Assembly: GCF_000383915.1 (NCBI RefSeq)
Contig: NZ_KB912942.1
Coordinates: 2,773,195-2,837,194 of the forward strand
DNA from: Amycolatopsis benzoatilytica AK 16/65
GTDB lineage: Bacteria; Actinomycetota; Actinomycetes; Mycobacteriales; Pseudonocardiaceae
DNA length: 64,000 bases
Direction of reading: 5' to 3'
Shown: positions 13,436-28,602 of the stretch, piece by piece
Numbering within the stretch: the first letter of the stretch is position 1
Layout of the letters: every line of letters starts with the position of its first letter
Made by a program: the position numbers and the translations under genes
The notes under the pieces: generated by a model
What the model saw: only the letters and a program-made list of their open reading frames with translations
Told to the model about the DNA's origin: nothing
Databases searched by the model: none

Positions 13436-15130
13436 TCAGTCGACCGGCTCGAACTCGCGCACCGCGTCCAGCGCGGCGCCCATCGCGGCGTTCCCTTCCC
13501 GCTCGATCATGATCTCCACGAGGACCGGACGGCGGGTGCGCTCCGCTTCCTTCCGCGCCCATTCCAGCGACGACCGGATCTCGCCCGGATCCGAGACCCG
13601 GGTGCCTGCGCAGCCGTAGGCCTCCATGATCTTCACGTTGTCCGCGCCGTGGTCGTCGTAATGGATGTCGACCTGGTAGTTCATGTCGTAGGGCAGTTCG
13701 GACTGCCGGATCAGGCCGAGGTACTCGTTGTTCAGCATGACGAGCACGAACCCGACGTCGTACTGCGCGGCGACGGCGAGCTCCTCGACCAGGAACTGGA
13801 ACGAGTAGTCCCCGACGACGCCGACGACCTCGGCCTCCGGCCGCGCCTTCTTGACGCCGATCGCGGCCGGGATCTCCCAGCCCAGCGGGCCGGCCTGGCC
13901 GCACACCTGGTAGTGCCGCGGCAGGTGCGCGCGCTGGAACTGGCCGGACCAGATCTGGTAGAGCCCGATCGCGGTGACGAAGTACGTCTCCGGTCCGTAA
14001 AAGTCGTTGAGCTCCTTGAACACCCGCGGCGCCTTGATCGGCGTGCAGTCGAAGTCCTCCTTGCGCGGCAGCTCGGCCTTGAGGTCGCCGAGCCGCTTGA
14101 CCCACGTGCGGTCCCGGGCCGGCGCCTCGCGCGCGTCGAGCGCGGCCAGCAGCGCCTCCACGAACTCGCGGGTGTCGGACACGACGCCGAGATCCGGGCC
14201 GAACACCTTGCCCAGCTGCGTGGGTTCGATGTCGACGTGGATGAACTTGCGGTCGCCGCGGTACACCGACAGCTCGCCGGTGTGCCGGTCGCCGAACCGC
14301 GCACCCAGCGCCAGGACCAGGTCGGACTCCAGGAAAGCCGCGTTCGCCCAGCGCTGCGACGTCTGGATGCCCGCCATGCCGGCGAACAGCTCGTGGTCCT
14401 CGGGGAAGCTGCCCTTGCCCATGAGCGTGACGCCGACCGGGACGCCGAGCCGCTCGGCGAGCCGGCGCAGCGGTTCGCTCGCCTCGCCGAGCACCACGCC
14501 GCCACCGGCCAGGATCAGCGGCCGTTCCGCGGCGAGCAGCATGTCCAGCGCGCGCTCGACTCGCGCCGGGGACGGTTTGACGGCGCTCACCGGCAGCGCC
14601 GAGTCGATGCTGGAATCCCACTCGATGATCTGCTTCTGCACGTCGATCGGCAGGTCGATGAGGACCGGGCCGGGACGGCCGGACCGGGCGATCCGGAACG
14701 CCTCGCGGAAGATCCAGGGCAGCTGCGCGGCTTCCTTGACCTGCACCGCCCACTTGGTGACCGGACGGGCGATCTCGACGATGTCGACCGCCTGGAACGC
14801 TTCCTGGTGCAGCTTCGTCGTCGCGGCCTGGCCGGTAATGCACAGGATCGGGACGGAGTCGGCGTGCGCGGTGTAGAGCCCGGTGATCATGTTGGTGCCG
14901 GCCGGGCCGGAGGTGCCTATCGCGACGCCGACGTTGCCGGTGGTGCGCGCCCACCCGTCGGCCATGTGCGTGGCGCCTTCCTCGTGGCGGACCACCAGGT
15001 GGTCGATGCCGCGGCCCTGCATCGCGTCGTACAGCGGCAGGATCGCCGCGCCGGGGCAGCCGAACGCGACGTCGATCCCCTCGTCGACCAGCACGTCGAC
15101 GACTGCCTGCATAGCGGGGACTCGGGCCAT
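13436..15130 (-). CDS. gcl: Glyoxylate carboligase (tartronate-semialdehyde synthase), divergent type
   Basis: A ThDP-dependent enzyme that joins two glyoxylates to tartronate semialdehyde and CO2. It has 564 residues, against 593 in E. coli. PYR domain at about 1-170 (GCPGAAILPLYDAM, CITGQAATTKLHQEAFQAVDI), middle domain at about 190-330 (GARFGDRHTGELSVY), PP domain at about 370-540 (CGQAGPLGWEIPAAIGV, VVGDYSFQFLVEELAV, LNNEYLGLIRQ). Position 50 is Glu in VRHEEGATHMADG. E. coli Gcl has Val51 here, a well-known loss of the ThDP-activating Glu. It ends an operon hyi-glxR-gcl, 2 bases after the glxR stop, which fixes the pathway. The sequence is far from the standard actinobacterial Gcl. Confidence 0.85.
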   Translation of the reverse strand: MARVPAMQAVVDVLVDEGIDVAFGCPGAAILPLYDAMQGRGIDHLVVRHEEGATHMADGWARTTGNVGVAIGTSGPAGTNMITGLYTAHADSVPILCITGQAATTKLHQEAFQAVDIVEIARPVTKWAVQVKEAAQLPWIFREAFRIARSGRPGPVLIDLPIDVQKQIIEWDSSIDSALPVSAVKPSPARVERALDMLLAAERPLILAGGGVVLGEASEPLRRLAERLGVPVGVTLMGKGSFPEDHELFAGMAGIQTSQRWANAAFLESDLVLALGARFGDRHTGELSVYRGDRKFIHVDIEPTQLGKVFGPDLGVVSDTREFVEALLAALDAREAPARDRTWVKRLGDLKAELPRKEDFDCTPIKAPRVFKELNDFYGPETYFVTAIGLYQIWSGQFQRAHLPRHYQVCGQAGPLGWEIPAAIGVKKARPEAEVVGVVGDYSFQFLVEELAVAAQYDVGFVLVMLNNEYLGLIRQSELPYDMNYQVDIHYDDHGADNVKIMEAYGCAGTRVSDPGEIRSSLEWARKEAERTRRPVLVEIMIEREGNAAMGAALDAVREFEPVD

Positions 15131-15132
15131 GG

Positions 15133-16023
15133 TCAAACCTCCTCGGACGAGCGGCCGGACAGTTCTTCGACAACCTTGAGCAGCGCGGAGTGGTCCAGCG
15201 AGCCGTAGCCCATCGCCCGCCCGGCCGCGACCAGCTGCGCGACCAGACCGGTCAGCGGGAGCGCCACGCCGGACTGCCGCGCCGCGGCGAGCGCGATGCC
15301 CATGTCCTTGTGGTGCAAGTCGATCCGGAAGCCCGGCCGGAACTGGCGCGCCACCATGGACTTCCGCTTCAGCTCCAGGATCCGGCTGCCGGCGAGCCCG
15401 CCGGCCAGCACGTCGAGCCCGGTGCCCGCGTCCACTCCGGACGCTTCCAGCAGCACGATCGCCTCGGCGACCAGCCCGTAGATCCCGCCGACCACCAGCT
15501 GGTTGGCGGCCTTGACGACCTGGCCCGCACCGTGCGGCCCGACGTGCACGACGGTTTTGCCGAGCGCGTCGAACACCGGCTTGGCGGCGGCGAAGTCGGC
15601 TTCCTCGCCGCCGACCATGATGGACAGCGTGGCCTGCTCGGCCCCGGCCTGCCCGCCGGAGACCGGCGCGTCCAGCACCCGGATTCCCTTGGCGGCACCG
15701 GCTTTCGCGACCTCGATCGAGGTCTCCGGCCGGATGGTGCTCATGTCCGCCAGCAGCGTGCCCGGGGCGAGCGAGTCGAGGACGCCGCCCGGGGCGAGCA
15801 CGACCTGCTCGACCTGCGGGTGGTCCGGCAGCATGGTGATCACGACTTCCGCGCCGGCCACCGCGTCCGCGACGTCGGCCGCCGCGCGCCCGCCGGCGGC
15901 TTCCAGCTTCGCCAGCGCGTCCGCGTTGAGGTCGAAGCCGCTCACGTCGTGCCCGGCGGCGGCCAGGTGCGCGGCCATCGGCGTGCCCATCACGCCGAGT
16001 CCGATGAAGCCGATCTTGCTCAT
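15133..16023 (-). CDS. glxR: 2-Hydroxy-3-oxopropionate (tartronate semialdehyde) reductase
   Basis: A 296-residue beta-hydroxyacid dehydrogenase that reduces tartronate semialdehyde to D-glycerate with NAD(P)H. The Rossmann start IGFIGLGVMGTPMAAHL, the substrate loop LDAPVSGGQAGAEQATLSIMVGG, the catalytic Lys in GAGQVVKAANQLVVGG and the cofactor-domain helix HKDMGIALAAARQSGV are all in place. Its ATG overlaps the hyi stop by one base (TGATG), and gcl starts 2 bases after its own stop, so the three are translationally coupled. The Gcl partner supports GlxR/GarR over 3-hydroxyisobutyrate dehydrogenase, which is the main alternative in this family. Confidence 0.9.
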   Translation of the reverse strand: MSKIGFIGLGVMGTPMAAHLAAAGHDVSGFDLNADALAKLEAAGGRAAADVADAVAGAEVVITMLPDHPQVEQVVLAPGGVLDSLAPGTLLADMSTIRPETSIEVAKAGAAKGIRVLDAPVSGGQAGAEQATLSIMVGGEEADFAAAKPVFDALGKTVVHVGPHGAGQVVKAANQLVVGGIYGLVAEAIVLLEASGVDAGTGLDVLAGGLAGSRILELKRKSMVARQFRPGFRIDLHHKDMGIALAAARQSGVALPLTGLVAQLVAAGRAMGYGSLDHSALLKVVEELSGRSSEEV

Positions 16024-16847
16024 CACTTTCCCCTTCGCTCGTACGGCAGCCAGGCCAGCGAGTCCACTGTGGACCCATCCGGTTTGTACTCGACGCCCAC
16101 CGGCCCGGCGTAGCCTGCTGCCTGCAGCTTCTGCAGGTATCCTTCGAGATCCAGCTCCCCCGTGCCCGGCTGGTGCCGGCCCGGCGCGTCGGCGATCTGC
16201 ACGTGCCCGGTGCGCGGGGTGTAGCGGGCGATCACGGTGTCGAGGTCGTCGCCGTTGACCGCCAGGTGGTAGAGGTCGGCGAGCAGCCGGACGTTGCCCA
16301 GGCCCAGCTCGTCGAGCACCGCGACCGCGTCGGCCGCGGTCTTCAGCGGGTAAGCCGGGGTACCCGACAGCGGTTCGAGCACCAGCTGTGCGCCGATGCC
16401 CTCGGCCGCTTTCGCCGCGGTGGCCAACTGCGTGCGGGCGAGATCGTCCTGTTCGGACGGGGAAACGCCGTCGACGCGGTTGCCGTACAGCGCGTTGAAG
16501 CTGCGGCAGCCGAGCCGCTCGGCGAGCCCGAGCGCCACGGTCAGGCCGGTCGCGAACTCCGCCTCGCGGCCGACCCACGACACGAGCCCGCGCTCGCCCG
16601 CGGCCATGTCGCCCGCGAAGAAGTTCAGCCCGGTGAGCTGCACGCCGGCGTTCTCGATCGACCGCGCGAACCGGTCGACCTCGGCCCCGGAAGGGTCAGC
16701 GCTGCCGAACGGCCACCAGTACTCCACCTTGGTGAAGCCCGCTGCCCGAGCGGCCTGCGCGCGCTCGAGCAGCGGGAGCTCGGTGAACAGGATCGACAGG
16801 TTGGCGGTGTAGGGCAGCGAGTGCCGCTCCCCGGCGGGACCGGTCAT
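16023..16847 (-). CDS. hyi: Hydroxypyruvate isomerase family protein
   Basis: A 274-residue TIM-barrel enzyme of the AP-endonuclease-2 superfamily that interconverts hydroxypyruvate and tartronate semialdehyde. Visible metal-site and barrel motifs are ANLSILFTELPLLERA near the N-terminus, KVEYWWPF, LVLEPL with the metal Glu, LLADLYHLAVNGDDL with Asp and His, GHVQIADAPGRHQPGTGEL, and the last metal Glu in GVEYKPDG. The start ATG 16847 has GAGGAG about 12 bases upstream. It is the first gene of the gcl operon. A GGAAG-TTTT-CTTCC dyad lies 38 bases upstream. Role assigned from family plus operon. Confidence 0.9.
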   Translation of the reverse strand: MTGPAGERHSLPYTANLSILFTELPLLERAQAARAAGFTKVEYWWPFGSADPSGAEVDRFARSIENAGVQLTGLNFFAGDMAAGERGLVSWVGREAEFATGLTVALGLAERLGCRSFNALYGNRVDGVSPSEQDDLARTQLATAAKAAEGIGAQLVLEPLSGTPAYPLKTAADAVAVLDELGLGNVRLLADLYHLAVNGDDLDTVIARYTPRTGHVQIADAPGRHQPGTGELDLEGYLQKLQAAGYAGPVGVEYKPDGSTVDSLAWLPYERRGK

Positions 16848-17131: not shown

Positions 17132-18118
17132 TCAGCCAACCGGGACCGCCGACGCGGTGCGATCGAGCAACCGGACCGCCGCGTGCACATGCCGCAGCGC
17201 CGGGGCGGCCGTCCCCGTGAGGTCGGCAAGCTCCACGACCGCACCGATGATGGCGTCGATCTCGAGCGGTTTCCCCGCTTCGAGGTCCTGGAGCATCGAC
17301 GTCTTGTGGTGCCCGACGCGCCACGCGCCGTCGATCCGCTTCTCTACCGACACCTGCGGGTCCGCCCCCGCCGCGCGAGCGATCGCGAGGGTTTCGGTCA
17401 TCATCGCGGCGACCAGAGCCCGGGTTTCGTCGTGCTCGCACATCTGCGCCATGGTCGCCCGGGTGAGCGCGCTGAGCGGGTTGAACGCGACGTTGCCCAT
17501 CAGCTTGACCCAGATGTCGTCCCGCACCCGCAGCTCGACCGGAGCCTTCAGCCCGCCCGCGATCAGCGCGTCGGCGAACGCGGCGCAGCGAGCCGAGCAG
17601 CCGCCGCCCGGCTCGCCGAGGGAAAACCGGGTCCCCTCGAGATGCCGGATGACGCCCGGTTCCTCGATGACGGTCGAACAGTAGACGACGCATCCGATCG
17701 CCCGCTCGACGTCGAGCACACGGCTCGTCGCACCGCCCGGATCCACGGCCTCCACGCGGTGACCTTCCAGCGGATGCCCGGCCAGGCCGTGGAAATACCA
17801 CCAGGGAATGCCGTTCTGAGCCGCGACGAGCGCGGTGTTGCGGCCGAGGAGGGGTTCGAGAAGCGGGCCGCAGTCCGGATACGAGTGCGCCTTGAGTCCC
17901 AGGAAGACGTAATCGACTGGGCCGACTTCGCGCGGATCGCTGGTCGCGTGCGGGCGCGCGGTGAAATCGCCGCGCGGACTCCGCACCCGAACGCCCCGTT
18001 CCCGCATCGCCGCGAGATGCGGGCCGCGGGCGATGAGGTGAACGTCGACGCCGGCCCGGTGCAGCGCCGCGCCCACGTACGCGCCGATCGCTCCCGCGCC
18101 CAGAACCGCTACCCGCAT
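17132..18118 (-). CDS. 2-Dehydropantoate 2-reductase (ApbA/PanE) family oxidoreductase
   Basis: A 328-residue NADP-dependent ketopantoate-reductase-like enzyme. N-terminal Rossmann domain with VAVLGAGAIGAYVGAAL, a FLGLKAHS segment, AAQNGIPWW and the catalytic Lys in RDDIWVKLMGNVAFNPLSAL, then the helical C-terminal domain with RTSMLQD-type block (HHKTSMLQDLEAGKPLEID). It stands alone, divergent from the GntR regulator and behind that regulator's putative site, next to the oxalate/glyoxylate island. A 2-oxoacid of that pathway is thus as likely a substrate as ketopantoate. AGGAGG is 7 bases before ATG 18118. Confidence 0.85.
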   Translation of the reverse strand: MRVAVLGAGAIGAYVGAALHRAGVDVHLIARGPHLAAMRERGVRVRSPRGDFTARPHATSDPREVGPVDYVFLGLKAHSYPDCGPLLEPLLGRNTALVAAQNGIPWWYFHGLAGHPLEGHRVEAVDPGGATSRVLDVERAIGCVVYCSTVIEEPGVIRHLEGTRFSLGEPGGGCSARCAAFADALIAGGLKAPVELRVRDDIWVKLMGNVAFNPLSALTRATMAQMCEHDETRALVAAMMTETLAIARAAGADPQVSVEKRIDGAWRVGHHKTSMLQDLEAGKPLEIDAIIGAVVELADLTGTAAPALRHVHAAVRLLDRTASAVPVG

Positions 18119-19413: not shown

Positions 19414-20811
19414 TCACCCACCAGCGCTACCCGCTGCCGGCGCGGCGGACGGAACGACCACCCCTTCCCCCACGCCCGGCCCGGACCGTCCGGGCTGTCG
19501 CAGGAACAACGTCATCCCCGCCGACAGCAACGCGATGCACCCGGCCAGCACGTAAGCCCCGGTGTATCCCCAAGCCGCGATGACCCCGGCGGCCAGCCCT
19601 CCCCCGCCGACGCCGCCGACCAGCTTCGCGCTGTACACGATCCCGTAGTTGGTCGCGTTGTAATTCTCCCCGAAGTAGTCCGGCACCAGCGCCGCGAACA
19701 ACGGATAGAACGCCCCGCTGCCGAATCCGGTCAGCACCGCGAACACCATGAACCAGAACAGACTGTGCGTCTTCCCCGACCACAGCACCCCGAATTGCGC
19801 GCCGGCAGCGATCACCAGCACCCAGAACAGCGTGGCCTTCCGCCCGATCCGGTCCGACGCCCAGCCGACAATGCCGCGCCCGACCCCGTTCACCACCGCG
19901 AGCACGCCCGCCGAGGACGCCGCTACGAACGCCCCGAATTGGCTCTCCTTGGCGAAATCGACCTGGAAGTTGATCCCGAACAGCGAAACTCCGCCGATCA
20001 CCACCAGGGTCGCCCACATCAACGGCAGCATCCCGCTCCGGATCGCTTCCATCGGCGTGAACTGGCGCACCGCGGGCGGGTTCTTCGCCAGGCTCCGTGC
20101 CTTGCCCGCCGCGTTTCCCTTCCCCCACGCGATCGGGTCGACCTCGGCCGGCCACCAGTTCTTGGGCGGATCCTTGAACACGAAGCCGCACAGCCCGACC
20201 ACCACCAGCATGTACAGCCCGATGGCATCCAGCGTGATCGTCACGTTCTCGTGGCCGAGAAACGCGCTGAACAGGTAAATGAACGGCACCGACCCGTAAG
20301 CGAAACCGCCGTTCACGAACCCGGTCCGCGCTCCCCTTTTCTCCGGATACCATTTCCCGACCATGTTGATGCAGGTCGCGTAAACCAGCCCGGCCCCGAT
20401 GCCGCCGAGCACCGAGTAGCCGGCGAAGGCCACCACCAGGTTCCCGCTGTGCGCGATGGAGAAGTACCCGATCCCGGAGCAGAGCGCCCCGACGAGCATC
20501 GCCGTCTTGGCCGACACGATGTTCTTCTCCCGCAGCCGCCCGGCCGGGAACGCCACCCCGGCCTGGAAAACTGCCCAGATGCTGGCCAGCCAGAACGCGT
20601 CCGTCAGCGACCAGCCGTACTTCTCCTCCAGCGTCCCCTCCACGGCTCCCCAGCCGTATTCGAAGACGCTCACCGCCATCATGGCCACCCACGGCAGCCA
20701 CACCATCCAGCTGCGGGACCGTCCCATCAGGTCCCGCGGGCTCTCCCCGATCCGGTAAGTCCGCCCGTTCTCGTCGACAATCTCCTGGTAAGTCGGTTGG
20801 GCTGCGGTCAT
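19414..20811 (-). CDS. OFA-family MFS transporter (oxalate:formate antiporter type)
   Basis: A 465-residue, 12-TM carrier of the oxalate/formate antiporter family. The family features are the N-terminal WMVWLPWVAMMAVSVFEYGWG, LGGIGAGLVYATCINMVGKWYPEKRG after TM4-5 (the OFA signature with G-x-G-x-G and KWFP-type loop), and GFGSGAFYPLFAALVPDYFGE. Its place at the distal end of an frc-containing gene run supports import of oxalate or a related dicarboxylate/carboxylate in exchange for formate. It lies 160 bases downstream of the acyl-CoA synthetase gene, so it may have its own promoter. Substrate inferred. Confidence 0.85.
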   Translation of the reverse strand: MTAAQPTYQEIVDENGRTYRIGESPRDLMGRSRSWMVWLPWVAMMAVSVFEYGWGAVEGTLEEKYGWSLTDAFWLASIWAVFQAGVAFPAGRLREKNIVSAKTAMLVGALCSGIGYFSIAHSGNLVVAFAGYSVLGGIGAGLVYATCINMVGKWYPEKRGARTGFVNGGFAYGSVPFIYLFSAFLGHENVTITLDAIGLYMLVVVGLCGFVFKDPPKNWWPAEVDPIAWGKGNAAGKARSLAKNPPAVRQFTPMEAIRSGMLPLMWATLVVIGGVSLFGINFQVDFAKESQFGAFVAASSAGVLAVVNGVGRGIVGWASDRIGRKATLFWVLVIAAGAQFGVLWSGKTHSLFWFMVFAVLTGFGSGAFYPLFAALVPDYFGENYNATNYGIVYSAKLVGGVGGGGLAAGVIAAWGYTGAYVLAGCIALLSAGMTLFLRQPGRSGPGVGEGVVVPSAAPAAGSAGG

Positions 20812-20971
20812 GAGAATTCTCTTTCGTCACCGTTGACTTCGGTTCCCGTGCCGGGCTTTCTCCGTTCTTCCCCCGAGCCGGGACGCGTCCGCGCCCCGAC
20901 GCCCTTCCCTGTCCCACTCCGCTGACCTGCGGTTACGTGCCGGGCAACTTACGCCTCCCTCTCCGAGTCGA

Positions 20972-23101
20972 TCAAGACAGCAATCCGGCCGAACGCGCCC
21001 AGCGGTACTTCGCGCCGAGCACGGCCACCGGCTTCTCGGTCGTGTACGGATAGGCCACGATCCCGTGCGCGTACAGGTGCTCGCTGGCCTGCTCGACCTC
21101 GACATCCCCGGACAGCGACGCCACCACCGGTTTCTCGATCCCCCGCCGGCGAAACTCCTCGACCACGTCCACGACGAGCTCCGCGAACACCATCGGCGGA
21201 GTGACGATCGTGTGCCAGTAGCCGAGAACCAGCGAGTGAATCCGATCGTCGGACAGGCCGAGCGCGATCGTGTTCCGGTAGGTCGACGGCGGTTCGCCGC
21301 CGGTGATGTCCACCGGGTTGCCCGCCGCGCCGAACGGCGGGATGTACTGGCGGAACGCCGCGTCGAGGTCGTCCGGGATGTCCATCAGCGACAGTCCGTT
21401 GTCGACGCAGGCGTCCGAGAGCAGGACGCCGGAACCGCCCGCCCCGGTGATGATCACGACGTTCTCGCCCTTCGGCGTCGGCAGCCTCGGCACTCCGCGC
21501 GCGTATTCGAGCAGGTCGTTGAGGCCCGGCGCGCGGATCACCCCGCTCTGGCGCAGGATGTCGTCGTAGACCCGGTCGTTTCCGGCCAGCGCACCGGTGT
21601 GCGAGCCCGCGGCTTTCGCGCCCTGCGAGGTCCGGCCGGCCTTCAGCACGACGATCGGCTTCTTCGCCGACACTCGCTTCGCCGTCTCGGCGAAGGCGCG
21701 GCCGTCCTTGAGATCCTCCAGGTGCATCGCGACCAGCTCGGTGTTCTCGTCGTGCTCGAAAAAGGTGAGCAGGTCGTCCTCGTCGATGTCCGCCTTGTTC
21801 CCGACACCGACAATCGCCGAGACGCCCATGCCGGCGGACCGGCTGAATCCCAGAATGGCCATGCCGATTCCGCCGCTCTGCGACGAAAGCGCGACGCCGC
21901 CCTTGACGTCATAGGGCGTGCAGAACGTGGCCGACAGGTTCTCCGGCGTGTAGTAGTAGCCGTAGATGTTCGGGCCCAGGATCCGTACGCCATGCTTGCG
22001 CGCGACGGCCAGAACCTCGTTCTGCAGCTCGATGTTCCCGGTCTCGCCGAAGCCGGACGGGATCAGGATCGCCCCGGCGGCCCCCTTCGCGCCGACCTCT
22101 TCCAGCGCGGCGGGAACGAATTTGGCCGGGATCGCGAAGATCGCCACGTCCACGTCGCCCGGGACGTCGGCGATGCTCGGATACGCCTTGCGGTCCAGTA
22201 TCTCCGCGGCCTTCGGGTTGATCGGGTAGATGTCGCCCGCGTAGCCGCCGTTGACGAGGTTCTTCATCACGGAATTGCCGATCTTGCCGTCCTCGGCGGA
22301 CGCCCCGATCACCGCGACCGCGGCCGGTTTCATGATCCGGTTCATCGCGGCCAGGATCTCCTCCTGCCCGAACCGCATCGGCTCCGCGGCCGCGGCCGGG
22401 TCGACCAGCATCCGGACGTCGACCGCGGTGGCCCCGGATCCGGTCGCCAGCACCGGGTTCAAGTCCGCTTCGGCCAGTTGCGGGAAGTCCGTGACCAGCT
22501 GTGACAGCCGGTGCACGATCTCCGCCAGCGCGGCCTTGTCCACCGCCTCGGCGCCGCGCACGCCGTCGAGGATTTCCGCCGCGGCGATGCCGTCCACCAT
22601 GGACAGTGCTTCCTCGGTGCTGGTGGGCGCGAGCCGGAAGGTCACGTCCTTCAGCACTTCGACCAGCACCCCGCCGAGCCCGAACGCGACGATCTTGCCG
22701 AAACTCGGATCGGTGACCGACCCGATGATCACCTCCTGGCCGCCGGTCAGCATCTGCTGTATCTGCACGCCAGTGATCCGCGCGGAGGCGTCATAAGCCT
22801 TGGCGTTGGCCAGAATCGCCCGATAGGCGTCCGCCACCGCCTGCTCGTCGCCGAGGCCGACCAGCACGCCGCCGGCCTCGGTCTTGTGCAGGATGTCCGG
22901 CGACACGATCTTCGCGACCACCGGGAATCCGATCTCCGCGGCCTGTGCCGCCGCCTCGTCCGCAGACGTGGCCAGCCGTTCCTGTGGGGTCGGAATCCCG
23001 TACGCCTCGCAGACCGCGCGGCCTTCCGGCGCGGTCAGCACCGACCGGCCCTCCGCCGCGACCCGCGAGAGGATCTCCTCCACCGCCGCCCGATCGGCCA
23101 T
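20972..23101 (-). CDS. Fused ADP-forming acyl-CoA synthetase (acetate-CoA ligase type), beta-alpha order
   Basis: A 709-residue ligase/synthetase that interconverts acid + CoA + ATP and acyl-CoA + ADP + Pi. The ATP-grasp (beta) domain comes first, residues about 8-230 (FPVVAKIVSPDILHKTEAGGVLVGL, GGQEVIIGSVTDPSFGKIVAFGLGG). The CoA-binding Rossmann domain is at about 245-370 (AVAVIGASAEDGKIGNSVM, PINPKAAEI), and the ligase domain at about 395-700 with the phospho-His near 501 in GSHTGALAGND. PatZ-type fusions run alpha then beta, so this is the reverse order. Its ATG overlaps the frc stop by one base. The substrate is probably a product or feed of the neighbouring CoA-transferase reaction. Confidence 0.85.
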   Translation of the reverse strand: MADRAAVEEILSRVAAEGRSVLTAPEGRAVCEAYGIPTPQERLATSADEAAAQAAEIGFPVVAKIVSPDILHKTEAGGVLVGLGDEQAVADAYRAILANAKAYDASARITGVQIQQMLTGGQEVIIGSVTDPSFGKIVAFGLGGVLVEVLKDVTFRLAPTSTEEALSMVDGIAAAEILDGVRGAEAVDKAALAEIVHRLSQLVTDFPQLAEADLNPVLATGSGATAVDVRMLVDPAAAAEPMRFGQEEILAAMNRIMKPAAVAVIGASAEDGKIGNSVMKNLVNGGYAGDIYPINPKAAEILDRKAYPSIADVPGDVDVAIFAIPAKFVPAALEEVGAKGAAGAILIPSGFGETGNIELQNEVLAVARKHGVRILGPNIYGYYYTPENLSATFCTPYDVKGGVALSSQSGGIGMAILGFSRSAGMGVSAIVGVGNKADIDEDDLLTFFEHDENTELVAMHLEDLKDGRAFAETAKRVSAKKPIVVLKAGRTSQGAKAAGSHTGALAGNDRVYDDILRQSGVIRAPGLNDLLEYARGVPRLPTPKGENVVIITGAGGSGVLLSDACVDNGLSLMDIPDDLDAAFRQYIPPFGAAGNPVDITGGEPPSTYRNTIALGLSDDRIHSLVLGYWHTIVTPPMVFAELVVDVVEEFRRRGIEKPVVASLSGDVEVEQASEHLYAHGIVAYPYTTEKPVAVLGAKYRWARSAGLLS

Positions 23102-24330
23102 CAGATGACCCCCGCGGCGCGGAACTGCTCGACGTCTTCCCTGCGGTAGCCGAGTTCGCCGAGCACCTGGTCGCTGTGTTCGCCCAGCAGCGGCGGACGC
23201 TCGACCTCCACCGGCGAATCCGACAGCTTCAGCGGGCAGCCCACAGTCTTGAACGCGCCGCGCTCCGGGTGCTCGACCTCGACCACCGAGCCCAGTTCGG
23301 CCAGCGTCTCGTCCTCGATCAGCTCCTTGGTGGACAGGATCGGCCCGCACGGGATGTTGCGGGCGTTGAGCAGCTCCATCACCTCCCATTTCGTCAGCTG
23401 CTCGGTCCACTCCTCGACGAGCGCGAACACCTTGTCCAGTTTGGACAACCGGGCCTCCGGGGTGGCCCAGTCCGGGTCCTCGGCCAGTTCCGGCCTGCCG
23501 ATCAGCTCGGTCAGCGGGGCCCAGCCGACCGGCTGGACGATCACGTAGATGTAGTCGTTCGGCCCGCCCGGCGCGCAGCGCACCGCCCAGCCGGGCTGGC
23601 CGCCGCCGGACGCGTTGCCCGAACGCGGCACCTCGTCGCCGAACCGCTCGTTCGGGTACTCGCCGAGCGGCCCGTGCGCCAGCCTCTGCTGATCGCGCAG
23701 CTTCACCCGGCACAGGTTCAGCACCGCGTCCTGCATCGCGACCTGCACCCGCTGGCCGCGCCCAGTGGCGGTGCGCTGGTACAGCGCGGCGAGGATCGCC
23801 GCGACCAAGTGGATGCCGGTGCCCGAATCGCCGATCTGCGCGCCGGTGGCGGTCGGCGGGCCCTGCTCGAATCCGGTGGTGCTCATCGAGCCGCCCATCG
23901 CCTGCGCGATCACCTCGTAGGCTTTGAAGTTCGCGTACCGACCGGGGCCGAACCCTTTGATGGACGCGTAGATCAGCCGGTCGTTCAGCTCGTGCAGCCG
24001 CTCCCAGGAGAACCCGAAGCGGTCCACGACGCCGGGTCCGAAGTTCTCCACCAGCACGTCCGCCGAGGACACCAGTTTGGCGAAGACCTCCTTGCCCTGC
24101 TCGCTTTTCATGTTCAGCGTGATGCTGCGCTTGTTCGCGTTGAGCATGGTGAAGTAGAGACTGTCCGCATCGGGCAGATCGCGCAGCTGGCCGCGGGTGA
24201 TGTCGCCGCGGCCGGGCGCTTCGAGTTTCACGACGTCCGCGCCGAGCCAGGCGAGGATCTGCGTCGACGACGGTCCGGATTGGACGTGGGTCATGTCGAG
24301 GACGCGGACGCCCTCCAGTGCCTTGCCCAT
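23101..24330 (-). CDS. frc: Formyl-CoA:oxalate CoA-transferase
   Basis: A 409-residue class III (CaiB/BaiF) CoA-transferase that moves CoA from formyl-CoA to oxalate. It parallels the Oxalobacter enzyme through most of its length: [66 protein letters not shown]. The catalytic Asp is Asp168 in QIGDSGTG. The mobile glycine loop ([11 protein letters not shown], residues 238-248) is present and separates Frc from most other family III transferases. It lies 17 bases after the ThDP-enzyme gene and overlaps the synthetase start, so all three are one operon. Confidence 0.92.
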
Positions 24331-24347
24331 CTTCAGGTCCTCCCGAC

Positions 24348-26162
24348 TTACTTGTACATCGTCTGATTCATGGTTCCGGGGGCGTAGGCGTCCGGGTCGA
24401 CCCAGACGTTGATCAGCGACGGCTTGCCCGATTCCCGCGCCCGGCGCAGCGCCGGCGCGATGTCCGCCGGGTCGCGGACCTCCTCGCCGTAGCCGCCGAG
24501 CATCCGGGCGAACTGGTCGTAGGGCACGTCGCCGAGGGTGTTGCCGATCCGTTCCCGGGCCAGTCCGTACTTCTGCGCCTGGCCGTAGCGGATCTGGTTC
24601 ATCGACGAGTTGTTGCCGACGATCCCGACGAACGGCAGGTCGAACCGCACCAGCGTCTCGAAGTCCCAGCCGGTGAGGGAGAACGCGCCGTCGCCGAACA
24701 GCGCGACGACTTCCTGGTCCGGCCGGGCGTGTTTCGCGGCCAGCACGAACGGGATCCCGACGCCGAGCGTCCCGAGCGGGCCGGGATCCATCCAGTGCCC
24801 CGGCGACTTGGGCTGCACCACCTGGCCGGAGAAGGTCACGATGTCGCCGCCGTCGCCGATGTAGATGGAGTCCTCGGTGAGAAACTCGTTGATCTCGTGC
24901 ACCAGCCGGTACGGGTGGATCGGGTTCGCGTCGGAGTGCTGCAGCGGCAGCCGCTTCAGCTTCGCCTTCTCCTCGACCGCGCGCAGTTCCTCCAGCCACG
25001 GCTTCCGGCCGACCGCTCCGGTGTCGACCCGCCCGGACGCCGCCTGCGCGACCGCCGCCAGGATCTGGCCGGGATCGCCGACGAGACCGAGGTCGATGTC
25101 GCGGTTCTTGCCGACGGTCCGGTAGTCGAGATCGACCTGGACCACCGTCGCGTCGGCGGAAAGCCTTTTGCCGTAACCCATCCGGAAGTCAAACGGCGTG
25201 CCGACGATGACGATCACGTCGGCGTTGTCGAACGCGTACCGGCGGGACAGCTGGAAATGGTGCGGGTCCCCGGGCGGGAGTGTGCCGCGCCCGGCGCCGT
25301 TCATGTACGCCGGGATGTTCAGCGCGCGGACAAGTTCGGTCGCCGGTTCGGTGGCCCTGGCGGTCCAGACCTGGCTGCCCAGCAGAATCGCCGGTTTGCG
25401 GGCGTGCACCAGCAGATCCGCCAGCCGCTCGACGTCCGCCGGGTCCCCGGCACTGCGCGTCGACGCACGATAGCGGCCCGGCTCCGGGATGCGCGCGTTC
25501 TCGAGCGGCACGCGGGCGTCCAGGACGTCGCGCGGAATTTCCAAAAAGGACGGTCCGGGCGCTCCGGCGAACGCCTCGCGGAACGCCATCGACACCAGGT
25601 CGGCCGCCCGGGAGGTATGCGGAACGGTGGCGGCGAACTTGGTGATCGGCGTCATCATGTCCACGTGCGGGAGGTCCTGCAGGGAGCCCATCTTGTGCTG
25701 GCTCAGCGCGCCCTGGCCGCCGATCAGCAGCATCGGGCTCTCCGCGCGCAACGCGTTCGCCACGCCGGTGACCGCGTCGGTCGTGCCCGGCCCGGCCGTG
25801 ACGACCGCGCAGCCGGGGCGGCCGGTGATCCGTGCGTAGCCGTCCGCCGCGTGCGCCGCGACCTGCTCGTGGCGCACGTCGATGACGGCGATGCCTTCGT
25901 CGACGCAGCCGTCGTAGATGTCGATGATGTGGCCGCCGCAGAGGGTGAAGATGGTGTCCACGCCTTCGGCTTTGAGAGCCTTGGCGACCAGGTGGCCGCC
26001 GGAGATGGTCTGCGGAGCGGACTCGTCGACGGTGGCTGGCCCGGCCGGCTTCGCGTTGGCCTCCTCGCCGGCGAGCGATCCGGGCTGCTCGCCGGAGGCC
26101 GGCTCCTCGGCGCGTCGGGTGGCCGGTTCGCCGGCGTGCCGGCCGGTCGTGGTTGGCGACAT
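24348..26162 (-). CDS. ThDP-dependent oxalyl-CoA decarboxylase / 2-hydroxyacyl-CoA lyase-like enzyme
   Basis: A 604-residue enzyme. An Ala/Glu/Pro-rich leader (about 1-50) precedes a PYR domain with the catalytic Glu99 in [16 protein letters not shown], a middle domain, and a PP domain with GDG at 490-492 and NN at 517-518. The tail ends [11 protein letters not shown]. As first gene of the operon with frc it would cleave oxalyl-CoA to formyl-CoA, or cleave/form 2-hydroxyacyl-CoA using formyl-CoA. At 159-168 it has [10 protein letters not shown], like the G-A-F-Q-E-F-P-Q block of 2-hydroxyacyl-CoA lyase. Oxalyl-CoA decarboxylase has Tyr-Glu there. Databases often call such genes acetolactate synthase. 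ATG 26162 follows AGGAGGAG. Confidence 0.75.
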
Positions 26163-26320: not shown

Positions 26321-26559
26321 TACTCCTCGATCGGCCCGCTGTCCAGGGGCAGCGGCGGGTTTGTCCGAAGGCCGGTCCGCAGTCGCCGGGGCGGGTGCGG
26401 ACCCGGGTCGGCACGGCATCGGCGGCAGCTGATTGCGGCTTCGAGCTGGCAAGACCGCCGCAGCGCCTCATCGGACCGGGCCGACAAGGCGGCGCACGGA
26501 ACCGGGCGGCCCCGCCGCTTCCCCTCCCCCTAGCTCACTCAGCGCAGGAAGGACCCCCG

Positions 26560-27714
26560 ATGGATCTCTTCGAACACCAAGCGCGCGACCTCTTCGCCGC
26601 GCACGGCGTGCCGGTCCCCCGCGGCCGCGTCGCCGACACTCCCGAACAGGCGCGGTCGGCGGCGGCCGAGATCGGCGGTGCCGTCGTAGTGAAGGCACAG
26701 GTCAAAACCGGCGGCCGAGGCAAGGCGGGCGGTGTCAAGATCGCCGCCTCGCCGGATGCGGCCGAGCAGGTCGCCGACGACATTCTCGGCATGGACCTCA
26801 AGGGCCACCGGGTGCAGCGCGTCCTCGTGACCGAGGCGAGCGACATCGCCGACGAGTACTACGTCTCCTATCTGCTCGACCGCGCGGACCGGACGTTCCT
26901 CGCCATGGCGTCGGCTGCCGGCGGAATGGACATCGAAGAAGTCGCCGCGACCCGGCCCGAATCGCTCGTGCGGGTGCCGGTCGACGCGCGGACCGGGATC
27001 ACCCGGGCGAAAGCCGGCGAGATCGTCGACGCGGCCCGGCTTCCCGGCGAGGTCGCGGACGTGCTGGTTCGGCTGTGGCAGGTCTTCGCGGCGGAGGACG
27101 CCACTCTGGTCGAAGTGAATCCGCTGGCGCGTACCGGTACCGGGGAGATCGTCGCGCTCGACGGCAAGGTCACCCTGGACGACAACGCCGCGTTTCGCCA
27201 TCCGGACCGGCCGGAGGACGCCGCCGGCGGCGATCCGCTGGAGCGCCAAGCCGCGGAGCAGGGCCTCAACTACGTGAAACTGCAGGGCGACATCGGCGTG
27301 ATCGGCAACGGCGCCGGACTGGTGATGTCCACTTTGGACGTCGTCGCGGCAGCCGCCCAGCAGGCGGGTGCGGCCGGTCCGGCCAACTTCCTCGACATCG
27401 GCGGCGGTGCGTCGGCCGAGGTGATGTCGGCGGGGCTCGGCGTGATTCTCGGGGATCCGGCGGTGCGGAGCGTTTTCGTGAACGTCTTCGGCGGCATCAC
27501 CGCCTGCGACGCGGTGGCCGACGGCATCGTGAAAGCGCTCGCGCTGCTGGGCGATCGCGCGACGAAGCCGCTGGTGGTGCGGCTCGACGGAAACAATGTC
27601 GCGCAGGGCCGGCAAATCCTGGCCGAGGCAGCGCATCCGCTGGTCACGGTGGTCGAAACGATGGACGACGCCGCTCGCGCAGCGGCCGAGCTGGCAGCGA
27701 CGGGGAAGGACTGA
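26560..27714 (+). CDS. sucC: Succinyl-CoA ligase (ADP-forming) beta subunit, catabolic-cluster copy
   Basis: A 384-residue ATP-grasp subunit. [39 protein letters not shown] (ATP lysine and glycine loop), [27 protein letters not shown] (metal Glu/Asn) and [17 protein letters not shown] are all SucC hallmarks. The gene begins with AGGAAGGA 7 bases ahead of ATG 26560, and sucD follows after 3 bases. Its setting among frc, a ThDP lyase and a fused ADP-forming synthetase, not near TCA genes, suggests a dedicated pair. Malate-CoA ligase (MtkAB) is an alternative specificity. Confidence 0.9.
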
Positions 27715-27717
27715 CCG

Positions 27718-28602
27718 ATGGCGATCTTCCTGGACCAGAACAGCCGCATCGTCGTCTCCGGCATCACCGGAGCCGAGGGCCTCAAACACACCCGGCGGAT
27801 GCTGGCCGCGGGCACGAACGTCGTCGGCGGGGTGAACCCGCGGAAAGCGGGCCAGCTGGTGCCGGTCGACGACCGCGAGCTGCCGGTCTTCGGCAGCGTG
27901 GCCGCGGCGATGTCGGAAACCGCCGCGGACACCGTGGTCTTGTTCGTGCCGCCGCCCTTCGTCAAAGACGCCGTGATCGAGGCGGTCGACGCCGGAATCG
28001 GCCTCGCCGTCGTGATCACCGAAGGCGTTCCGGTGCACGACGCAGCCGCGTTCTGGGCGCATGCCCGAGGCAGCCGCACCCGGATCATCGGCCCGAACTG
28101 CCCGGGCATCGTCTCCCCGGGCCGCTCGAACGCGGGCATCATCCCCGCCGACATCACCGGGCCGGGCCGGATCGGGCTGGTGTCCAAGTCCGGCACGCTC
28201 ACCTACCAGCTGATGCACGAACTGCGCGACATCGGCTTCTCCAGCTGCGTCGGCATCGGCGGCGACCCGGTCATCGGCACCACGCACATCGACGCGGTCG
28301 AGGCGTTCGAAAAGGACCCGGACACCGATGTGATCGTCCTGATCGGCGAGATCGGCGGCGACGCCGAAGAACGCGCCGCGGAGTACGTGCGAGAGCAGGT
28401 CAGCAAGCCGGTCGTCGGATACGTCGCCGGGTTCACCGCGCCGGAGGGCAAGACAATGGGGCACGCGGGAGCCATCGTGTCGGGCTCGGCCGGCACCGCG
28501 ACCGCCAAGAAGGCGGCGCTCGAAGCCGCCGGAATCCGAGTCGGGCGCACGCCCAGCGAAACGGCCCGGCTGGTGCGGGAGGTGCTGACAGAGGCGGACT
28601 AG
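27718..28602 (+). CDS. sucD: Succinyl-CoA ligase alpha subunit
   Basis: A 294-residue CoA-binding subunit. The nucleotide-binding fold carries [44 protein letters not shown] and [12 protein letters not shown]. The phosphorylated His is His249 in [10 protein letters not shown]. The length matches normal SucD (about 290). It pairs with the sucC gene 3 bases upstream to form the alpha2beta2 or alpha-beta enzyme, which acts in the cytoplasm. The EVLTEAD C-terminus is complete. A second sucCD set for the TCA cycle is expected elsewhere in the genome. Confidence 0.92.

Follow-up and report, generated by a model that had tools for sequence, protein, structure and literature searches.

Most ThDP enzymes carry a Glu at N1' of the cofactor, which promotes the imino form and the ylide. 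The requirement for this residue has its standard exception in the glyoxylate carboligase (Gcl) of E. coli, an FAD-containing enzyme. Amycolatopsis benzoatilytica AK 16/65 encodes a protein of the Gcl clade in which Glu is found where E. coli has Val. The gene lies in a stretch of 64,000 nucleotides that was analysed here as a whole (the window), and it raises the question whether the Glu was restored, as the initial annotation had proposed, or was kept from an ancestor. The comparisons described here favour the second answer. We consider it likely that the gene encodes a Glu-type glyoxylate carboligase with an inherited ThDP-activating Glu50, and that Val arose later and only once.

The gcl gene and its surroundings

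The gcl gene, identified as a Glu-type glyoxylate carboligase (tartronate-semialdehyde synthase, EC 4.1.1.47) by its translation, the family model NF008431 and Foldseek, occupies 13436..15130 on the minus strand. Its reading frame is uninterrupted, gives a protein of 564 aa and contains VVRHEEGATHMADGW. Residue 50 is Glu, specified by the codon GAG at 14981..14983 (minus strand, read 14983-14981), and in the alignment it shares a column with Val51 of the E. coli K-12 Gcl (gene from NC_000913.3); translation, codon and alignment thus all agree with what had been read from the letters at the outset. A sequencing accident or a lone aberrant codon at this place was ruled out, since the motif VRHEEGATHMADG is shared by 120/120 of the best homologues listed of 8000 scored. 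The nearest homologues in this list are Amycolatopsis proteins with an identity of up to 97%.

Directly upstream of gcl and on the same strand lies glxR (15133..16023), coding for a 2-hydroxy-3-oxopropionate (tartronate semialdehyde) reductase that scores 351 bits on TIGR01505, over the cut-off of 340.75. It is preceded by the hydroxypyruvate isomerase-like gene hyi (16023..16847, minus strand; start set at an ATG within its ORF), for which TIGR03234 is the best family with a full-length match of 279.3 bits, below the cut-off of 353.45. The stop of glxR and the start of gcl are only 2 bases apart, and one base is shared by the hyi stop and the glxR start (TGATG); hence hyi, glxR and gcl very probably form a single transcript. 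The gene is therefore found in an operon with a tartronate semialdehyde reductase and a hydroxypyruvate isomerase, the latter under the cut-off of its own model. Glycerate kinase has three matches elsewhere in the source genome, all over the TIGR00045 cut-off. Upstream of hyi, a PanE-like gene (2-dehydropantoate 2-reductase-like, 17132-18118, minus strand, over the NF005089 cut-off) may encode an alternative tartronate semialdehyde reductase. On the other side, an MmyB-like regulator (PF17765; 12544-13347, plus strand) is convergent with gcl.

An oxalate-like cluster is located near the operon at 19414-26000 on the minus strand. It contains an MFS carrier, on which the models for the oxalate/formate antiporter family and for an L-lactate carrier tie, both under cut-off, an ADP-forming CoA ligase, a class III CoA-transferase and a ThDP enzyme (24348-26000) that is nearest to PRK05858 and 2-hydroxyacyl-CoA lyase, again under the cut-offs. 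Beyond it, on the plus strand, follows a pair of genes for an ADP-forming succinate-CoA ligase (26395-28602), with a beta subunit over its model cut-off and then an alpha-like gene. Oxalate may be one source of glyoxylate for the operon.

Membership in the Gcl clade

The best NCBIfam model for the protein is NF008431 (PRK11269, glyoxylate carboligase, equivalog), on which it reaches 880.5 bits and passes the cut-off of 791; the nine acetolactate synthase rows that serve as outgroup score 422-496 bits on the same model. A reading of the protein as an acetolactate synthase or a relative misfiled as Gcl could appeal to TIGR00118 (acetolactate synthase large subunit), where its 524.7 bits stay close to, but below, the cut-off of 538.35. 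The acetohydroxyacid (acetolactate) synthase large subunits also share with the window protein the canonical Glu together with Asp at position 283 (E. coli numbering here and below) in 9/9 rows. Against this, all Gcl groups share 36 columns that the outgroup lacks, L421, L478 and I479 among them, and the outgroup has M421, M478, V479 and T420 where the window protein has L, L, I and P. The phylogeny with acetolactate synthases and the mapped residue, which had been suggested as a check, places the protein outside the outgroup, parted from the nine rows by a branch with 100/100 support. In addition, a separate acetolactate synthase large subunit is encoded elsewhere in the source genome (a single contig of 8.7 Mb). 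This protein (L002; 1079 bits on PRK07789, over cut-off) is the next-best match to the gcl protein in this genome at 36% identity. Family models, tree and Gcl-wide columns led us to reject a misassigned acetolactate synthase, a reading that is barely credible.

Structure comparison gives the same picture. The six top-scoring solved sequences for the protein are Gcls from E. coli, its mutants or Deinococcus metallilatus. The AlphaFold model (mean pLDDT 80.6) is weak at 391-393, 412-415 and 483-492 and was used for the fold only; in Foldseek its top matches are E. coli Gcl structures, and seven Gcl chains rank above any acetohydroxyacid synthase. With the E. coli Gcl (b0507, P0AEP7; PDB 2PAN, 8I01) the protein shares the fold (Foldseek TM 0.91 to 2PAN), 49% identity, the adjoining hyi and glxR genes and the residues A28, A29, I30, Q115, R284, I393, L421, L478, I479 and R480. 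It differs from it (window/E. coli) in Glu50/Val51, Leu31/Asn31, Asn80/Asp82, Tyr391/Ser396, Ser443/Asp448, Glu478/Gln483, Asp281/Asn283 and Leu479/Arg484, and in the gene order, which is hyi-glxR-gcl in the window and gcl-hyi-glxR in E. coli. The Gcl of D. metallilatus (PDB 7CT6) is alike in fold and 51% identical, and differs by its Val-type motif ARHVEGASHMADG. Because family model, hyi-glxR-gcl operon, fold and Gcl-specific residues concur, the window protein is, as judged from its sequence, to be placed in the Gcl clade and not among the acetolactate synthases. The view that the operon marks a true Gcl therefore stands in the form of a Gcl-clade member inside a hyi-glxR-gcl operon.

A second Gcl equivalog model, TIGR01504, gives the protein 675.1 bits, below its cut-off of 711.2. 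Among 9 other Glu-type proteins 5 pass this model and 4 fail (688-708 bits), while the E. coli Gcl scores 1283. TIGR01504 would thus seem to have been modelled on the Val type and not to mark a functional boundary. Its curated cut-off (711.2) shuts out several actinobacterial Glu-type Gcls that NF008431 admits.

Distribution of Glu and Val and direction of the change

Glu is common at this position. Among 530 aligned Gcl rows, 479 have Glu and 51 have Val; this alignment was restricted to proteins longer than 540 aa, which removed P0243 among others, and to locus segments longer than 500 aa, and the 51 Val rows correspond to 40 distinct aligned rows, some genes being present twice (e.g. L036 and L176). 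Three protein searches, with queries that lie far from each other within the clade, returned Glu in 120/120, 120/120 and 119/119 readable proteins of the best 120 of 8000 each, one of the 120 in the third search being a fragment without the region. This third list includes Inquilinus, Propylenella, Sulfuricaulis and a Methylomirabilis bin. The proteins named glyoxylate carboligase from Inquilinus, Sulfuricaulis and Methylomirabilis (P0262, P0297, P0330) have Glu in the same column as the window protein, to which they are 56-59% identical, and differ from it in a tree position nearer the Val clade.

Within 296 sampled Actinomycetes genomes, 49 have a Gcl match, and all of the 51 matches were read: 31 are Val and 20 are Glu, the window's own included. 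A sample of 150 genomes from the family to which the window belongs contains 97 with a match and 101 matches altogether; the 27 above 1030 bits were all read as Val, and of the 74 below 920 bits the 14 that were read (13 and the window's own) are all Glu. Both types are thus ordinary in actinobacteria. The initial annotation had taken Val to be the usual actinobacterial motif, which holds for 31 of the 51 Actinomycetes matches and not for the other 20. Plasmid records (60 of 142 and 40 of 133 listed) yielded no non-actinobacterial Glu-type gene in the 8 loci read, of which 7 are Val and 1 is Glu (Nonomuraea).

A survey from 2012 (PMC3534367) gives Glu51 for 94% of decarboxylase sequences and Val for 3%; among Gcls it describes Val as 'characteristic of the entire family', 'which indicates a different mechanism'. 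The window protein, with Glu50, lacks this proposed hallmark. Family-wide Val is contradicted by the present sample, where Val marks a single subclade in both trees described below.

To read the direction of the change, a careful maximum-likelihood tree was computed from 84 rows (57 with Glu, 18 with Val and 9 of the outgroup) after removal of the trait column; only 6 of the 18 Val rows come from outside Actinomycetota. Every Val row falls into a single clade (100/100), which the tree places inside the Glu diversity. This clade joins the Inquilinus-like Glu rows with a support of 99/94, and the two together join L164/L165 with 99/100; outside this group fall the lineage of the window protein and the remaining deep actinobacterial Glu rows. 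The protein thus belongs to a Gcl lineage distinct from the E. coli type, as had been supposed. Two pairs of deep Glu-type Gcls from actinobacteria, L164/L165 (G524, G335) and L210/L211, group with Inquilinus-like and Val rows; at these four loci glxR lies downstream and hyi was not found within 6 kb. On the careful tree a single change, from Glu to Val, is needed. A FastTree built from 539 rows, of which 51 have Val and 488 have Glu (the 9 outgroup rows included), gives the same number; here long branches that meet at the outgroup row L002 were flagged. Both trees were built without loci L196-L266.

The careful tree has weak points: the outgroup sits on a long branch, and support is low for the exact sister of Val (48/7) and for the deep actinobacterial join (52/21). 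In an AU test, an all-Glu clade with Val as its sister had a log-likelihood 17.05 lower and was not rejected (p 0.136). Given this test and the long outgroup branch, the nesting of Val inside the Glu rows is less sure than the polarity. Glu would be ancestral under either topology, nested or Val-as-sister, because the outgroup has Glu: all nine acetolactate synthase rows, each over the TIGR00118 cut-off, carry it.

These data bear directly on the claim that Glu was restored, i.e. that the Gcl ancestor had Val and the window lineage reverted. The claim has in its favour that the E. coli Gcl and the solved 7CT6 and 8I05, both aligned here, have Val. However, one Glu-to-Val change fits both trees with an outgroup that is Glu in 9/9 rows, and 21 other columns switch together with Val. 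The Val rows are also the less diverse: their pairwise identity has a minimum of 66% and a median of 75% in the 51 rows from Deinococcus, actinobacteria and Proteobacteria, compared with 54% and 68% in 120 random Glu rows. A restoration is thus very unlikely and was rejected, a single Glu-to-Val change being enough. Because one such change suffices and the outgroup is Glu throughout, Glu appears to have been retained, and Val to be derived with a single origin in our sample. The lower diversity of the Val rows together with their host range across Deinococcus, actinobacteria and Proteobacteria suggests that the Val type spread late by horizontal transfer.

Linked residues, substrate scope and mechanism

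Columns that follow the trait were defined as those in which one letter makes up 95% or more of the Val rows and 12% or less of each Glu group. There are 22 such Val-diagnostic columns (31, 48, 51, 55, 82, 178, 188, 389, 396, 404, 412, 414, 424, 444, 448, 468, 483, 517, 521, 555, 577 and 584), so that 21 columns accompany position 51, with 577 and 584 sitting in the gappy C-terminal end. In 40 further genes, columns 31, 82, 396, 448 and 483 carry the Val-type letters in 27/27 Val genes and in 0/13 Glu genes. Columns 31, 82, 396 and 448 lie, as we take it from ThDP enzyme structures, in or beside cofactor-binding motifs.

The Glu-type proteins might still be Gcl-clade carboligases with another substrate pair, for example with pyruvate or a mixed 2-oxoacid as donor, whose product is processed by Hyi and GlxR. 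Position 283, which is Asn in all Val rows, is Asp in the window's group as it is in the nine outgroup rows, and position 484, Arg in E. coli, is Leu in the window protein. The E. coli double mutant 8I05 has altered letters at both 283 and 484, and these positions may for that reason matter for substrate scope. Position 484, however, varies among the Val rows too, with Arg in 75%, and residues 28-30, 115, 284, 393, 421, 478, 479 and 480 are invariant in Glu- and Val-type rows, I393, L421, L478, I479, Q115, R284 and R480 among them. The missed TIGR01504 cut-off would also fit another substrate pair, but the Glu-type P0244, P0262, P0297 and L164, which stand nearer the Val clade, pass both Gcl models. 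The wider donor range proposed initially thus found no positive support in the ten cofactor and pocket residues, all of which match E. coli, yet the window protein does differ at 283, with Asp for Asn, and at 484, with Leu for Arg.

Gene context bears on the same question. Both hyi and glxR were found within 3 kb of gcl and on the same strand in 77/80 named Glu-type loci, in 20/20 further actinobacterial Glu loci and in 11/11 Val loci. Other classes of the phylum contributed 17 Glu loci, two of which come from one genome. At 11 of these both genes are present, at 3 one of them is, and at the other 3 both lie nearby on the opposite strand. Among 8 further loci viewed, the Val-type L218 has glxR, and hyi was not seen. 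The three named loci without hyi and glxR (L133, L138 and L147), all from Micromonosporaceae, could again speak for another substrate pair. At each of them the Glu-type gcl is accompanied by a PanE-like reductase that shares 71-72% identity with its counterpart at 17132-18118 in the window. At L138 (8590-11715, minus strand; Actinoplanes italicus), the Glu-type gcl has as neighbours an aldehyde dehydrogenase and an oxalyl-CoA decarboxylase that exceeds the TIGR03254 cut-off with 979 bits, L147 has a gene 91% identical to this oxalyl-CoA decarboxylase, and L133 has a ThDP gene 84% identical to the window gene at 24348-26000.

Both types occur together in four related genomes (G569, G633, G671, G747), and in 0 of the 49 Actinomycetes genomes with a match. 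In G569, the one of the four whose neighbourhoods were viewed, the Val-type and the Glu-type gcl each stand in the order hyi-glxR-gcl-glxK, which argues against a different substrate pair. These equal operons are the best sequence evidence that both types would catalyse the same reaction, and a different substrate pair for the Glu type seems unlikely. Five genomes (G055, G259, G479, G598, G674) have two Glu-type gcl genes apiece; in G598 hyi and glxR lie by both copies, and in G479 the copies are nearly identical and on small contigs.

For the Glu-type carboligase with an inherited Glu50, we propose the following course. The enzyme would convert two glyoxylates to tartronate semialdehyde and CO2 and thereby supply GlxR and Hyi of its own operon. 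ThDP would attack the first glyoxylate, CO2 would be lost and the carbanion-enamine would add to the second glyoxylate. Glu50 would act as the ordinary ThDP-activating Glu that came down from an acetolactate-synthase-like ancestor, protonating or hydrogen-bonding N1' of the aminopyrimidine, so that the imino form is favoured and the ylide is formed faster. By alignment, Glu stands at the standard position 51 for such activation, and it is reasonable to suppose that the mechanism differs from that of the E. coli Gcl in being ordinary Glu-assisted activation. The Val of the E. coli type would have had one later origin on one branch, along with about twenty other fixed substitutions, and these co-changing positions may compensate for the loss of Glu. 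In E. coli Gcl, V51E reportedly speeds up the first step and harms later ones; Glu-type Gcls would escape this penalty via their partner residues.

We lean, with some reserve, towards a broader reading. Glyoxylate carboligation may never have required the loss of Glu, and most of the Gcl diversity would be Glu-assisted. Val would have evolved once and spread horizontally, enabled by linked changes (31, 82, 396, 448 and 483 among the 22), and the poor performance of V51E would reflect missing partners and not the chemistry. The available portions of PMC6270654, PMC6350894, PMC5020499, PMC5727371, PMC12247030, PMC12927642, PMC12214560 and PMC13327070 contain no mention of Glu-bearing Gcls, and no report or assay of one was found among the top-ranked open-licence papers, as judged by title or opening of the abstract.

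By its sequence, the window gene appears to be an ordinary member of a large Glu-type Gcl branch. The interest therefore lies in this branch and in the single Glu-to-Val switch, and not in the window gene alone. If many Gcls keep Glu, the exception among ThDP enzymes becomes an evolutionary switch of which both states are still living, sometimes in one genome. What lets a ThDP enzyme dispense with Glu would then be testable by swapping few residues between natural enzymes. Glu-type Gcls would likewise offer themselves for structure work, the six solved sequences found being only those of E. coli, its mutants and D. metallilatus.
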